Positions 1-57,784 of a stretch of 57,784 nucleotides of DNA are shown here, one piece after another. Under the pieces are notes generated by a model, which saw nothing but the letters and a program-made list of their open reading frames with translations, was not told the DNA's origin and ran no database searches. The translations under genes were made by a program, and so were the position numbers. Positions within the stretch are counted from its first letter, which is position 1; every line of letters begins with the position of its first letter. Source of the stretch: a virus; the IMG/VR virus record IMGVR_UViG_3300013104_000006, positions 1-57,784 of that record; one strand, 5' to 3'.

Positions 1-123
1 CTGCAGCTTAGTTAATGAAGCCCCGGTTAAAAAGTTTAGGATTCGATTGTTTGATACGATTTATAATAAAAATTATAAAGATTTGGCGGGAATGGAATTT
101 GATGTGCAAACCGATTTACCGGA
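1..123. repeat. Terminal direct repeat, left copy
   Basis: These 123 bases are repeated exactly at 57662-57784. A reading frame continues unbroken from the right end through this copy, so the two ends join and the unique genome is 57,661 bp. The repeat may be an assembler overlap on a circular or circularly permuted genome, or a real short terminal redundancy; sequence alone cannot separate these. Confidence 0.95.
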
Positions 124-1753
124 GGTGGACCACGACGCCACTATTACAATTTTCCACCCTATACAAAAAAATCCGGTAGTTATTGAGCCTGGCGATTGGA
201 TGGAAGTAAACCCGACAAAAAATAACAAACAACACAACCCCGAAGTATTCGAGAAAATAGAAAAATTAGTGAAAGATCATTCCAAAGAAATGACTAACGA
301 AGAGCGTAACAAAATGCTTTCCGAAGAGATCCGCGGATTATTCGATAAATACGATAAAGAAGGGGGTTTAATTGGCTTTATCGCTTACGGTAAAGATATT
401 GAAGAACTAGGCCCAAAAACAGCTAATAAAATGCTGGAATTAAAAACAGTTTTGGAAGCTGCAGGGTATAAAAACCATATTAACTACGCTTCAGATCCTA
501 ACCACCTGGAAAGTATTTTTATTAACGATAAGTTAGATACTATCCGCCCTATTAATCCGGGAAAAATTACCGAAGAAACAGGCGAAAAAATATTAGAAGG
601 GCTTAAAGATATAAGTAAAACTTTTTACGATAATTTCGAAAAAATCTCGGATTTCCGCCAGGGTTTACAAGTTAATAACCTTTATCTATCGATTCTAAAG
701 TTTAACGAATGGCGTAAACGGGCTGTTAGTTGTGCTCTTAAAGAACTCGAATTAGTAAAACAGTGTTTTGCGCCTGATAAAATTAGCCGTGGCGTAGTCA
801 TTAATCAAATCGTTAAAGATTTCCAATCGGATTTCCACACTGAATATTTAAAATATTTCCCGGCACCTGGAAGGTGTGGTAAAGTATCTTATTTTCAAAA
901 GTTAAGCGAAGATATGAAATCGCTTTTTCCTGAAGATATAACACCAGCTGGCGCCACTCCAAAAGAAAGGGCGGAAAGCACTTTTTTAAACGCTTTGGAA
1001 TTTGCTTACAGAACGCCATTTAATACTAAAATGGGTATAGATCCCGCCGGGCCTAATATGGATAAAACGGTAGTTTCTTCAGTTAGTGTAATTGATGGAA
1101 TGTTAAAAATATTAGATGTTTTTGATGTTGACAGATCCAAAGATTTAGGCAGTAATGATATTATAAAAGCTTTTGAAGAAAATATTTTTAAAGATCCTAA
1201 ATGGAAACACCGCGGCGAATGGAAGCCAGGATTTTATTACCCAGGGGATAAGGTAGTTTACGAAGGTAATTTATACGAAATGATTTTGGATTTAGGTTTA
1301 AGATCCTGTTTTAATCCGTTAATAACTACCATTCCCATAGCCTGGAAGAAAGTTCCATTTTTCCCGAAAAAACAGGAAAATCCTACCGATTACATTTATA
1401 GGGGTGGGTGGAGATCAGGAACGGAATATAAAAAAGGGGAAATAGTTAAATATAAGGGAGTTTTTTATATAGTTGATCTGTATTATCATTTCCACGAAAA
1501 CAAATCGCCTGAAGAAGCCGGGCACATGTGGAAGCCTCTTCCGGATCAGGATTTTACGCCTGATCCATCTAAAAAATTTATTGTGGAATTTAAGTCTAAC
1601 GAAAAATGGCTAAAAGAACATCTTTTGCGTAGGCAGAAACAATTAAAACGCGCGATAGCTAAATACACCAGCAAAGGGCTTAAAACCCCGCAAAGCTTAA
1701 AGGATCAGTTAAACGAAATTGAAGCGCAATTAATCCCTAAAGATGGAAAGTAA
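1..1753 (+). CDS. C-terminal part of a 699-aa protein crossing the end join; tandem SH3-like repeats plus carbohydrate-binding-like modules
   Basis: This is the continuation of the gene that starts at 57315; a TTG at 47 is internal, not the start. The joined product is 699 aa. Residues 1-190 look like three tandem units of about 55 residues (strand, turn, L-x-G-x-x-F-x-V), suggestive of SH3-like barrels. The middle is mostly helical and unrecognised. Near the C-terminus two units beginning HRGEWKPGFYYPGDKVVYEG and YRGGWRSGTEYKKGEIVKYK follow the W..G..Y..GD.V.Y.G..Y pattern of CBM5/12-type modules, which bind polysaccharide. A basic helix closes the protein. The following HTH gene overlaps its end by 11 nt. 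Surface binding or an early host-directed role are both possible; function is unknown. Confidence 0.8.
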   Translation, partial: CSLVNEAPVKKFRIRLFDTIYNKNYKDLAGMEFDVQTDLPEVDHDATITIFHPIQKNPVVIEPGDWMEVNPTKNNKQHNPEVFEKIEKLVKDHSKEMTNEERNKMLSEEIRGLFDKYDKEGGLIGFIAYGKDIEELGPKTANKMLELKTVLEAAGYKNHINYASDPNHLESIFINDKLDTIRPINPGKITEETGEKILEGLKDISKTFYDNFEKISDFRQGLQVNNLYLSILKFNEWRKRAVSCALKELELVKQCFAPDKISRGVVINQIVKDFQSDFHTEYLKYFPAPGRCGKVSYFQKLSEDMKSLFPEDITPAGATPKERAESTFLNALEFAYRTPFNTKMGIDPAGPNMDKTVVSSVSVIDGMLKILDVFDVDRSKDLGSNDIIKAFEENIFKDPKWKHRGEWKPGFYYPGDKVVYEGNLYEMILDLGLRSCFNPLITTIPIAWKKVPFFPKKQENPTDYIYRGGWRSGTEYKKGEIVKYKGVFYIVDLYYHFHENKSPEEAGHMWKPLPDQDFTPDPSKKFIVEFKSNEKWLKEHLLRRQKQLKRAIAKYTSKGLKTPQSLKDQLNEIEAQLIPKDGK

Positions 1754-9335: not shown

Positions 9336-9665
9336 ATGGCAACAATCGGGGAATATATCGACGAAATAGTAAAAGATCTTCGCTTACCTTTGGGGATAGC
9401 GGCGTTATCTTCTTTTTATGTTAAAAATGGTGTTTCATCTACGGACGAACTGACAAAGGATAACATAGAAAAAATGGATATTGCTTTAATCGGTGTAATT
9501 CCTACGTTGCTATTAATGCCGGATAAAACAACGGGCGATACTTCTTTAAAGTGGGATCGTTCGGCTGTTTTATCTTATTATCGGTTAAAGTGTGCAGAAT
9601 ACGGGATACCTGACGATCAGGCCACACCACCAAACGAAATTATAGACATTTCTAACAGATGGTAG
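9336..9665 (+). CDS. Head-tail connector (adaptor) protein
   Basis: 109 aa, mostly helical, as expected for gp6/gp15-type adaptors that bind under the portal. It follows the capsid gene and precedes the stopper and tail-completion genes. Assignment rests on position, size and helix content; no signature residue is decisive. Confidence 0.6.
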   Translation: MATIGEYIDEIVKDLRLPLGIAALSSFYVKNGVSSTDELTKDNIEKMDIALIGVIPTLLLMPDKTTGDTSLKWDRSAVLSYYRLKCAEYGIPDDQATPPNEIIDISNRW

Positions 9666-9666
9666 T

Positions 9667-9960
9667 ATGGTAGATAAGTTCTTTTATCCGCATTTTCTGC
9701 AAAAAAAGGTAAACGGTACCTGGGTTAATCAATTTGAATGCGGCGAACAACCTAACAGCGGAGGCAAAGCCGTTAACACCGTGGAGCGTGTAGATTACAT
9801 TTTCAAATCATTAATATTTTATCCTAAAGAAATTTCCGATTATGTTTTTTTAGCTGGGGAAGAAATTAGGGTATTAGATGATTCAGATGTAGTTCGCATT
9901 ACGGGGAAAGTGGCGCGTTTCGACGTCGGGAGATTGGACGATAACCGTATATGGATATGA
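9667..9960 (+). CDS. Head-closure (stopper) protein
   Basis: 97 aa, strand-rich, with the pattern of a small barrel: V-D-Y-I-F-K-S-L-I-F-Y-P near residue 42 and G-E-E-I-R-V-L-D-D-S-D-V-V-R-I-T-G-K-V near residue 65. This resembles SPP1 gp16-type stoppers. It overlaps the next gene by 10 nt in the head-tail joining block. Confidence 0.6.
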   Translation: MVDKFFYPHFLQKKVNGTWVNQFECGEQPNSGGKAVNTVERVDYIFKSLIFYPKEISDYVFLAGEEIRVLDDSDVVRITGKVARFDVGRLDDNRIWI

Positions 9961-29174: not shown

Positions 29175-29209
29175 AAAAACCCCGCCTTTATTTCAGGGCG
29201 GGGCTTTTA
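29175..29209. terminator. Terminator hairpin shared in sequence with the one at 47.95 kb
   Basis: CCCCGCC (29180-29186) pairs with GGCGGGG (29197-29203), with T/A runs on both sides. The 25 nt at 29179-29203 are identical to 47949-47973. On the minus strand it follows the 55-aa gene and is succeeded by TTTTTGGGTA and the gene at 29155 with no promoter between. Confidence 0.85.
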
Positions 29210-29377
29210 TTAGTTTGTAATTTCTTTAATTCTATCTGCTATTATTTTTTGTGCTTTTTCTGTTAACATTTCAGCTTTTGCCTGTTCAGGCGTAGCGCCG
29301 TTTTTTATGCAGTTAGTGAAGTATTCGAAACCTATTTGGTTAATCGCAATAGCCTGGGTAATTTCTTGATTTTTCAT
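29210..29377 (-). CDS. 55-aa helical protein under the shared GGAA promoter
   Basis: ATG 29377 to TAA 29210. Helical throughout; the segment N-G-A-T-P-E-Q-A-K-A-E-M-L-T-E-K-A recalls D-G-I-P-E-D-I-A-T-K-I-T-R-I-A-E-L in the 58-aa gene at 50957, which has the same promoter and leader. The two may be diverged copies of one family. Function unknown. Confidence 0.65.
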   Translation of the reverse strand: MKNQEITQAIAINQIGFEYFTNCIKNGATPEQAKAEMLTEKAQKIIADRIKEITN

Positions 29378-47634: not shown

Positions 47635-47680
47635 TTTAAATTGTCGTGTACCCAAAAACCCCGCTTTGTTAGGGCGGGGC
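47635..47680 (-). promoter_or_regulatory. Terminator-like hairpin and CACGACAATTTAAA leader before the methyltransferase
   Basis: Minus strand: CCCCGC pairs with GCGGGG (47679-47674 and 47664-47659), then TTTTTGGGTA and CACGACAATTTAAA (47648-47635), ending 2 nt before the ATG region. The upstream gene stops at 47686, so transcripts entering the methyltransferase must read through this hairpin. It mirrors the module at 2772. Confidence 0.65.
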
Positions 47681-47685
47681 GAATA

Positions 47686-47901
47686 TTAATTTTTTAGTTT
47701 TATTAAATCATTGTGCAACCTTTCCAGGCGATCAGCATTTGAAGCCAGCCGGTGCCCCTTACTTGTATCTGATAAATCCATGGTTTTTAAAACTTCGTCG
47801 ATCTTTTGCATAGAAGAATAAACCGAATTTACCAAATCTTCAATTTCTGCAGATGAAACAGCGATTAACTTTTGATCTTCTTTTAAATTAATTAATTCCA
47901 T
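47686..47901 (-). CDS. Unrecognised 71-aa helical protein
   Basis: Two helices, acidic then basic: A-V-S-S-A-E-I-E-D-L-V-N-S-V-Y-S-S-M-Q-K-I, and S-N-A-D-R-L-E-R-L-H-N-D-L-I-K-L-K-N. Coiled-coil pairing likely. Its leader contains the hairpin at 47.95 kb. Function unknown. Confidence 0.65.
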   Translation of the reverse strand: MELINLKEDQKLIAVSSAEIEDLVNSVYSSMQKIDEVLKTMDLSDTSKGHRLASNADRLERLHNDLIKLKN

Positions 47902-55521: not shown

Positions 55522-55833
55522 ATGCAAGAAATTGTTTTAAACGGAAAGCCTACAAGGGTAGGCAAATTATTAGATGGGTTTAACCTGAAGGCTACCCCGC
55601 AAAGCTCAAACGTTAGTGTATTTGGCGTTAATGCTGAAAAAGGCGAACTATTCGTAAGATTTCGAAACGGAAGCCAGTATTTGTATAATCCAGTGGATCC
55701 CGAAACATTACACCAGGCATTACATGCAGAAAGTATAGGCAAGTTTATTTCCAGGGAAATAGTTAAAAAATTCAGCTCTACTAAAATAGCTGAAAATCTA
55801 TTTACAGAAATTGACGATAAGAAAGTGTTTTAA
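55522..55833 (+). CDS. KTSC-domain protein
   Basis: 103 aa. S-S-N-V-S-V-F-G-V...L-F-V-R-F-R-N-G-S-Q-Y-L-Y-N-P-V, then A-E-S-I-G-K-F-I-S-R-E-I matches the KTSC pattern (S-S-x-I...L-x-V-x-F-x-x-G-x-x-Y-x-Y...S-x-G-x-x). KTSC domains are common, function unknown, in phages and with RNA or DNA-processing proteins. Last gene before the gene-free RNA region. Confidence 0.8.
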   Translation: MQEIVLNGKPTRVGKLLDGFNLKATPQSSNVSVFGVNAEKGELFVRFRNGSQYLYNPVDPETLHQALHAESIGKFISREIVKKFSSTKIAENLFTEIDDKKVF

Positions 55834-55846
55834 ACAAAAATAATAC

Positions 55847-55854
55847 TACTTTTG
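55847..55854 (+). promoter_or_regulatory. Promoter -7 element of the 90-nt RNA
   Basis: TACTTTTG matches TAnnTTTG, 13 nt after the KTSC stop. No TTTG lies 19-21 nt upstream. Confidence 0.5.
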
Positions 55855-55858
55855 CGGG

Positions 55859-55946
55859 GCACATCTTTAAATAAATACCCGCTGCGAAGTGGCATCGTCT
55901 TGTAAACTCTTCATTTTTACCCCCGGCCAAAAGCTGGGGGTTTTTT
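55859..55946 (+). ncRNA. Candidate small RNA, about 88 nt
   Basis: No open frame. From the promoter element to a strong terminator (ACCCCCGGC / GCTGGGGGT, 55919-55941, then T6). Inside, GCGGG (about 55854-55858) can pair with CCCGC (about 55878-55882), and GAAG (about 55886-55889) with CTTC. It has the size of a tRNA but no plausible cloverleaf, so it is called a small RNA. It directly precedes the giant RNA. Confidence 0.45.
55919..55946 (+). terminator. Strong intrinsic terminator of the small RNA
   Basis: ACCCCCGGC pairs with GCTGGGGGT (one G:U pair), loop CAAAA, then T6. Confidence 0.9.
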
Positions 55947-56020
55947 GTTTGTTTAGAAAAATTACATAAAAATTATTTAACTGATAATCAAATAGTTATT
56001 AAATTAATATAATAAATAAT

Positions 56021-56050
56021 TTTGAACTGTATTTTTTATTTATACCTTTG
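56021..56050 (+). promoter_or_regulatory. Promoter of the giant RNA
   Basis: TTTG (56021-56024), 18 nt, TACCTTTG (56043-56050). It is preceded by an A/T-rich stretch and followed by dense RNA structure with no open frame. Confidence 0.65.
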
Positions 56051-56054
56051 AAAC

Positions 56055-56728
56055 ATGCCGCCGGGAAATAAGGATAGACGGGTAGCATTGTTCAAAAGTT
56101 TAAGACGCTTTTTATGCCCCGCCTGGTTAGTTCCTTGCGGGGTTAGGGCGTTGAGAGCGTTAATTTAGATAAGAAACGGGGGTTAATGAACGAATGATTT
56201 AGCCCCCTTTCTTTTTAAAGCTCAAAGAAATTTTAGGTAAATCGGCCCCGAAAAGCTAACTTATTAAACGATTATAAGGAGTAAGGGCTTAAACGGTATT
56301 CCCGTTGAATAGCGGAATATGTTTACCGGCCCCTGGGTAGCTTCCAGGGGTAAGATATTAAAGGCGTACTATATGTAATAGCGGTGGGTAAATGAACAAA
56401 CGATTTTATCCCCGCTTAATTAAGCCTAAAGCAAGTAATTAAATTAGCCGGTAATTGCACCGGATTTGGCACCGAAAGCCGGCCAAAAGCTGTTAAATGG
56501 ATAGGATCGGCACCCATAGGGGAATTTAATTACACCGTTTAGAGTAGCGAAAAAAGATTACGAAAGGGGTTTAAAATCCCTGGTGTATGGAAATAAGGTT
56601 GTAAGGCCGGCAAGCTCAAAACGTTAATAGCGATAACCATAGAAAAGCGCACCCCGTAAGGTGCCATAGACAGAAAGCGCGGAAAGCGCACAAAACAACA
56701 AGCGCCGGCAAATGGCCGGCGCTATTTA
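56055..56728 (+). ncRNA. Candidate giant structured noncoding RNA (about 670 nt)
   Basis: No coding frame. Perfect or near-perfect helices visible by eye: CCCCGC/GCGGGG (56117-56122, 56137-56142); AAGAAA-c-GGGGG/CCCCC-TTTCTT (56171-56182, 56203-56213); CCCCTGG/CCAGGGG (56330-56336, 56344-56350); CCGGT/ACCGG (56448, 56459); an 11-bp long-range GTAATTAAATT/AATTTAATTAC (56435-56445, 56523-56533); GCCGGCC/GGCCGGC (56478, 56605); TATGG/CCATA (56586, 56637); GCACC/GGTGC (56649, 56660); GCGC-GGAAA-GCGC (56677-56689); and a 9-bp end hairpin (56701-56723). Two stem-loops share a 17-nt loop (56184-56200, 56390-56406). Size and complexity recall GOLLD and ROOL phage RNAs; family unassigned. Confidence 0.65.
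56701..56728 (+). terminator. 3' hairpin of the giant RNA
   Basis: AGCGCCGGC pairs perfectly with GCCGGCGCT around AAATG, followed by ATTTAAATTGTT. A weak U tract suits a 3' boundary or processing site as much as a terminator. Confidence 0.6.
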
Positions 56729-56767
56729 AATTGTTCACTCATAATAAATTATATTCACTTTTTGTTG

Positions 56768-56801
56768 AAAAACCCGGTTACTGGATAGTACCGGGTTTTT
56801 T
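56768..56801 (+). terminator. Intrinsic terminator
   Basis: AAAACCCGGT (56769-56778) pairs perfectly with ACCGGGTTTT (56790-56799), then more T. Together with the previous hairpin it closes the RNA locus. Confidence 0.88.
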
Positions 56802-56803
56802 AT

Positions 56804-56811
56804 TACATTTG
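56804..56811 (+). promoter_or_regulatory. Promoter -7 element just before a start codon
   Basis: TACATTTG ends 4 nt before the ATG at 56816, so a transcript would start at or after that ATG: a leaderless message, or initiation at the second ATG (56822). Confidence 0.45.
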
Positions 56812-56815
56812 GGTA

Positions 56816-57190
56816 ATGAAAATGTTTAAAATTGCTTTAATGTTGGCCGTTATGTTTATCGGCGCTTCACTTTACACGATTCCAGTAAAGGCACAGGAAA
56901 AGGATTCCACGGTTTTAGCTGCAGCAAAACCCATTTTTTCAGGCAATGAAAAAAACCTGACTGATACGTTAATGGCTTACGGTAACGCGGCCACTTCCCC
57001 CGAATTTAAAGCCGTGGTAGATGAAGCCGTAACGGTAATTAAGAACCCGCCAACGGATGGAAAGGTAGATAGTTGGTACGCCTGGATAATCGCCGCCCTG
57101 GGGGCTCTATTTGGTGTTTATCAATTCTTTAAGAGTAAGAAAACGCCCGAACCTGATCCCGCAAGCAAACCAGCTGATCGATATAGGTAA
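56816..57190 (+). CDS. 124-aa exported or membrane protein with C-terminal transmembrane helix, holin-like
   Basis: Residues 1-26 form a signal-like segment (M-F-K-I-A-L-M-L-A-V-M-F-I-G-A-S-L-Y-T-I) ending P-V-K-A-Q-E. Near residues 87-106 W-Y-A-W-I-I-A-A-L-G-A-L-F-G-V-Y-Q-F-F is a second transmembrane helix, followed by a charged tail K-S-K-K-T-P-E-P-D-P. A two-span small protein with such a tail fits a holin, but it is far from the endolysin and stands alone between terminators. Host-envelope modification is an alternative. Confidence 0.65.
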   Translation: MKMFKIALMLAVMFIGASLYTIPVKAQEKDSTVLAAAKPIFSGNEKNLTDTLMAYGNAATSPEFKAVVDEAVTVIKNPPTDGKVDSWYAWIIAALGALFGVYQFFKSKKTPEPDPASKPADRYR

Positions 57191-57314: not shown

Positions 57315-57784
57315 ATGAAAAAAGTATTAATTACGGGGTGTTCACACCCTATTTTGTGGTATTCTAATTTGGTTAATACCGTGGTGGAAATTGAAAAAAT
57401 AGACGCTACAGGCCAGGGGATTTTAACGGCTGAACAAAGAATAAAAGTAGCGCCAATACCGGCTTATCGTCCTTTAGCAGCTTCTATAGATCCGCGGGAT
57501 TTCAAGGAAACCACGGAAATAAAAGTTAATCGTTTACCGCATCACATTACCGAAGAAATTTCCGATATGATTTTGGGTAAACAATTTGACGCGGTAAGCG
57601 ATGGCGATTCCTGGGATTTTTGGCCGGTTCAAAATATTAGAATCACGATTGGTAAAAACTACTGCAGCTTAGTTAATGAAGCCCCGGTTAAAAAGTTTAG
57701 GATTCGATTGTTTGATACGATTTATAATAAAAATTATAAAGATTTGGCGGGAATGGAATTTGATGTGCAAACCGATTTACCGGA
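57315..57784 (+). CDS. N-terminal part of the 699-aa protein crossing the end join
   Basis: The start ATG follows the leader above. The frame runs to 57661 and then continues from position 1 to the stop at 1753 (2,100 nt in all); bases 57662-57784 repeat 1-123. Residues 1-60, 61-125 and 126-190 look like three tandem small barrels (V-L-I-T-G..., I-K-V-N-R..., I-R-L-F-D...). Description of the whole protein is under the 1-1753 entry. Confidence 0.85.
   Translation, partial: MKKVLITGCSHPILWYSNLVNTVVEIEKIDATGQGILTAEQRIKVAPIPAYRPLAASIDPRDFKETTEIKVNRLPHHITEEISDMILGKQFDAVSDGDSWDFWPVQNIRITIGKNYCSLVNEAPVKKFRIRLFDTIYNKNYKDLAGMEFDVQTDLP
57662..57784. repeat. Terminal direct repeat, right copy
   Basis: Identical over 123 bases to 1-123; see that entry. 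Confidence 0.95.

Follow-up and report, generated by a model that had tools for sequence, protein, structure and literature searches.

The head/structural gene cluster of this phage is interrupted by almost 1 kb of DNA that encodes no protein, which raises the question of what this locus makes instead. The window, i.e., the whole stretch of 57,784 nt analyzed here, is a complete genome, because its first 123 bases (1-123) are identical to its last 123 bases (57662-57784); the record is cut inside gene 57315, whose frame stays open across the join into 1..1753 and gives a protein of 699 aa. The phage encodes an SPP1-type portal, a large terminase, a MuF-type head protein, an amidase/endolysin, RecT and an exonuclease, and its nearest named relatives are Porphyromonas and Riemerella phages, at low identity. 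It is a virus of soil or freshwater Bacteroidota that probably infects Sphingobacteriaceae, the host family being predicted by an 18-nt motif described below. Positions 55834-56815, flanked by the KTSC gene (55522-55833) and the gene of a small membrane-type protein, contain no ATG-initiated open reading frame (ORF) of at least 60 aa on either strand. These 982 bp, compared with 420 bp for the next-largest such gap in the genome, bear out the gene-free locus of nearly 1 kb noticed in an earlier sequence-only reading, which proposed a giant structured RNA of about 670 nt with its own promoter, either a member of the GOLLD or ROOL RNAs or a new class. The interpretation that we favor, with somewhat less than even confidence, is a long noncoding RNA gene of a probable Sphingobacteriaceae phage, belonging to a small new modular family and acting through imitation of, or competition with, a host small RNA (sRNA).

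We delimited the RNA gene by its predicted signals (Table 1). The KTSC gene upstream ends in its own terminator, which sets it apart from the RNA gene. The promoter pattern, when taken alone, is weak evidence, with 7 matches in the window against 3.2 expected; its counterpart in three related phages lends weight to the earlier claim that the locus has its own promoter. Together, this promoter and the intrinsic terminator give an RNA length of approximately 750 nt rather than 670 nt, as the transcript most likely extends to the terminator.

Table 1. Predicted features of the RNA locus in window coordinates
Feature	Position	Strand	Evidence
Terminator of upstream KTSC gene	55919..55948	+	9-bp stem, loop of 5, T-run
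Bacteroidota-type promoter, TTTG-N18-TACCTTTG	56021..56050	+	Pattern scan; ACCTTTG-nAATGC at the same place in L167, L260 and L277
Inferred long noncoding RNA, ~750 nt	56053..56805	+	Span from promoter to terminator, lack of any ORF of 60 aa, fold z -4.49
Stem A, hairpin immediately 5' of the motif	56105..56152	+	z -3.5; core CCCCGC (56117-56122) with GCGGGG (56137-56142)
18-nt motif, GAGAGCGTTAATTTAGAT	56153..56170	+	Exact match to the 5'-terminal sequence of a multicopy sRNA family in Sphingobacteriaceae
Stem B, terminator-type hairpin with tail TTTCTTTTT	56178..56216 (hairpin 56178-56207)	+	z -3.9; host copies with tails such as TTTCTTTTT
Block C, common to window, L167 and L277	56536..56608	+	0/300 shuffles reach the alignment score, any pair
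Motif 2, TTAATAGCGATAACCATA	56624..56641	+	Identical in L260; modest significance, 6/300 shuffles
3' GC hairpin, AGCGCCGGC-AAATG-GCCGGCGCT	56701..56723	+	9-bp
Intrinsic terminator, RNA 3' end	56768..56800	+	11-bp perfect inverted repeat, then T-run
Downstream small membrane-type protein gene, synteny marker	56816..57190	+	56-59% identity in L167, 35% in L260

The predicted fold of the + strand is more stable than that of shuffled sequences, with 0 of 20 shuffles as stable, as against a z of -2.06 for the - strand, and the + strand z weakens to -3.0 without the last two hairpins. The middle 480 nt (56217-56695) alone show no significant fold excess (z -1.58, 6 of 100 shuffles as stable). The 5' module and the 3' hairpins account for most of the excess, so that the ornate folding claimed for the whole region is real as a + strand excess but concentrated at these two places, and the "at least ten clean helices" are unsupported as a whole. 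Two individual elements of the sequence-only reading, a long-range pairing across 77 nt and the 9-bp hairpin at the 3' end, are real, whereas two of its four GCCGGC palindromes (56704 and 56715) are simply the arms of that hairpin. Several helices are supported at the level of prediction, but not a secondary structure for the entire RNA.

Long noncoding RNAs with the same motif-bearing 5' layout occur in four further IMG/VR phages, namely L167, L260, L277 and L178, with inferred start-to-terminator lengths of 1089, 575, 1484 and 933 nt, respectively. The family thus has five members at most including the window, and two relatives keep the gene order of the window. In L167 the RNA is followed by the membrane protein and gene 57315, and in L260, where additional DNA separates MuF from KTSC and the RNA is followed by a small ORF, the order is MuF, KTSC, RNA, membrane protein and gene 57315; in L277, MuF lies directly downstream of the RNA. 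For pairwise alignments we used stricter gap costs, as long alignments with loose gaps were uninformative. L167, L260 and L277 have a common 5' domain starting with AATGCGC (z 13-19 among the three), and the part of the window RNA that precedes the motif is related to L260 (z 7.1), L167 (z 5.7) and more weakly L277 (z 3.0). No relation to L178 was detectable upstream of the motif, and L178, linked mainly by the motif region, appears to be the most distant and least secure member. Two contigs of one metagenome (3300022751), L007 and L167, both closely resemble the window phage and break off on opposite sides of the KTSC position; a single phage genome split near the RNA may have given rise to both.

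Other searches with the locus returned little. A blastn search of the region against phages gave chance matches only, and nhmmer with the whole RNA against ~160 MuF loci gave a single weak match inside a gene (L026), which was rejected. A covariance model of the 5' domain built from L167, L260 and L277 missed the 5' end of the window RNA and matched ordinary terminators. The downstream membrane-type protein was found in none of 401 Sphingobacteriaceae genomes, and when the 5'-domain DNA was compared with the same genomes, almost all of the matches listed covered the motif alone and none spanned the domain. As searches at this sensitivity did not reveal the long RNA in these genomes of the presumed host family, it may belong to non-integrating phages. 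Phage L241 encodes the downstream membrane-type protein but has no RNA before it.

We then compared the conserved blocks at the level of base pairs. In block C, a 3-bp stem reads GGG/CCC in the window, CGG/CCG in L167 and CCG/CGG in L277 (alignment A5, by eye), and a pattern search for this block matched L167 only. The 3' hairpin of L260, AGCGGGGGT/GCCCCCGCT, is paired at 9 of 9 positions with two pairs changed on both sides relative to the window; L167 has a similar hairpin of six pairs, whose register against the window and L260 is ambiguous. Among L167, L260 and L277, the 5' domain has two pairs changed on both sides and 94.5% of its cells paired, compared with 37-58% when slid, but in these three sequences the covariation did not exceed the shuffle control (60/500). 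Over the whole structure, a few pairs changed on both sides were found, in a small number of sequences. The homolog and covariation check proposed in the sequence-only reading turned up homologues and a few helices with compensatory changes, while the 5' domain did not rise above its control. Owing to the synteny, the homologous blocks, the conserved promoter position and some compensatory changes, a conserved free-standing phage RNA gene, as predicted from sequence, is well supported.

The 5' domain of the window RNA consists of stem A, the 18-nt motif and stem B. The motif and the terminator-type hairpin following it had been overlooked in the sequence-only reading, whose proposal of a structured RNA gene stands insofar as the RNA is conserved and at least partly structured. 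A 20-mer, TGAGAGCGTTAATTTAGATA, was found in 13 stretches of IMG/VR, where the chance expectation is, by our own estimate, far below one. In many phages the motif lies between stem A and stem B, with the hairpin positions kept and the sequences varying; most of the other phage copies have a hairpin of different sequence at the place of stem A, and the tail of stem B is often TTTCTTT, as in hosts. In L169 and L173 the module forms a short host-like unit. The - strand of the window contains terminator-like GCCCCGCC hairpins at 29175-29257 and 47654-47712, and as stem A is similar to these, it may derive from a phage terminator.

In bacteria, the motif first emerged from a low-stringency search, in which 21 nt matched a Pedobacter contig exactly. 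The exact 18-mer is present in 70 of 201 Sphingobacteriaceae genomes, in 1-12 copies, with 0 for a reversed-pattern control; in a phylum sample of 297 genomes it occurred in four, all within the Sphingobacteriaceae set, and in none outside. With ≤2 mismatches allowed, twelve copies were found in one Pedobacter genome and nine in another. Nearly all inspected host copies show a TA-rich promoter-like box a few bases before GAGAG, then the motif and a hairpin with a T-rich tail, and from these sequences we read them as a multicopy Sphingobacteriaceae sRNA family with a near-invariant 5' end. The host copies gave no match to Rfam 15, and our literature search returned no prior description of the host GAGAGCG sRNA family or of the long phage RNA; the host sRNA system itself appears to be undescribed. 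Among the Sphingobacteriaceae genomes L180-L239, the copies are often in tandem (L195, L224). In single-copy genomes (L210-L230), GTAACC or GAAAC followed by GTATAAG stands directly before the motif, by eye an ECF-sigma-like promoter shape.

RybB and MicA are enterobacterial sigma-E sRNAs. The host copies resemble them in their small size, their conserved 5' end, their terminator hairpin and, in single-copy genomes, a promoter that looks ECF-sigma-like by eye, but differ in that the family is unrelated in sequence and reaches 12 copies per genome, and in that its phage version forms part of a much longer RNA. The window shares with the GAGAGCG family the exact motif and the terminator-type hairpin right after it. 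It lacks a promoter directly before the motif, the window promoter lying ~100 nt upstream with stem A in between; the motif is the inferred RNA 5' end in hosts, whereas it is ~100 nt internal in the window RNA. Thus, the hosts have promoter, motif and terminator, and the phage has the motif and a terminator of the same type behind an added hairpin.

The phage may well use the motif for host mimicry. Polymerase would start near 56053, and stem B with its tail UUUCUUUUU would either terminate part of the transcripts or mark a cut, resulting in a short RNA of ~165 nt that displays the GAGAGCG motif between two hairpins. This short RNA could imitate the host sRNA, or compete with it, for an mRNA or protein partner, a protein being as possible as an mRNA. 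Read-through would lead to the 750-nt RNA, whose 3' part may be a stable scaffold, also carrying phage tRNAs in the relatives. In a more far-reaching and less probable version, the RNA would represent a new class unrelated to GOLLD and ROOL, with the host sRNA module and the tRNAs as exchangeable cargo and with the module imitating the apparently undescribed multicopy host sRNA system. Large phage RNAs are few, and the exact 18-nt signature ties the window RNA to a host RNA family.

The tRNAs of the relatives offer a different explanation. They lie inside the RNAs of L260, L277 and L178, and tRNA genes or tRNA-like stretches directly follow the motif module in L168, L170, L174, L175, L179 and L252, as would fit a tRNA-island transcript in which the module and the 3' hairpins are a tRNA leader and trailer and the window copy would be the spacer RNA left after the loss of its tRNAs. 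We regard this as unlikely, though less so than the further alternatives below: the window and L167 contain no tRNA yet keep blocks that are not tRNA sites (block C and the 3' hairpin), and the motif also stands alone, sRNA-like, in hosts and several phages. On the RNA strand of L277, ~300 nt downstream of its tRNA-Ala, we observed a degenerate tRNA-like stretch (GGTTCGATTCC arm) within the long RNA, which may be a second tRNA in decay.

Membership in GOLLD or ROOL was rejected on the basis of covariance searches. Against Rfam 15, the window gave no match at the gathering score, and the region gave no match to GOLLD, ROOL or any other large RNA at an E value of 10; at E 0.1, the GOLLD and ROOL models matched neither L167, L260 and L178 nor the 5' part of L277, and Rfam searches of the relatives yielded tRNAs and sub-threshold chance matches only. 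Like GOLLD, the window RNA is a long phage RNA of ~0.8 kb from a group with tRNAs in some members and variable 5' or linker parts (PMC12286853); a tRNA in or beside the RNA, a GOLLD trait, is absent from the window and present in three relatives. It differs in having no covariance match, in coming from Bacteroidota phages and in carrying a host-type sRNA motif. ROOL is likewise phage-encoded, 0.6-0.7 kb long and often near tRNA islands (PMC12286853), but again there is no covariance match and the ornate fold is not supported throughout. What links the RNA to GOLLD and ROOL is a resemblance only, in phage setting, variable linkers and the presence of tRNAs in relatives, and the new-class alternative, with relatives that show GOLLD-like traits (a location in the phage structural region, tRNAs inside), was the better half of the earlier guess. 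Both GOLLD and ROOL are described as having no known function (PMC12286853). An RNA-only multimer of this kind, in which the 5' module and the tRNAs would serve as cargo or linker, would agree with the size, the structural region, the tRNAs in relatives and the variable linkers (PMC12286853); given the lack of a sequence or covariance match, the weakly folding middle and the small number of conserved helices found, we consider it improbable.

Slightly less probable again is a cis-acting leader, in which stem A, the motif and stem B would form an attenuator or anti-termination element for the downstream structural genes. In L171, L257, L258 and L262 the module indeed lies between same-strand genes without an obvious promoter, and stem A is similar to other terminators of these phages. 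However, a full terminator stands between the window RNA and the next gene, the downstream gene varies from a membrane protein (window, L167) to a small ORF (L260) and MuF (L277), and the host copies end in their own terminator and have no downstream gene in common. That the locus is nonfunctional spacer DNA with helices formed by chance is highly improbable, as the weak fold excess of the middle and the few homologues are set against synteny, homologous blocks, an exact motif, a promoter and a terminator.

For the host-imitation reading that we prefer, the 18-nt signature is a concrete handle for finding the partner of the motif. A search of viral contigs with the stem B loop pattern gave no match, and shorter 16-mer matches in L248, L259, L261, L268 and L270-L272 lie inside genes and were set aside as chance. 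In L245 (- strand, near 9790) and L264 (- strand, near 9442), a GC-rich hairpin has the 16-nt motif core in its loop, a layout unlike all others. L258 carries two tandem motif modules between genes (2436-2513), each preceded by its own hairpin.
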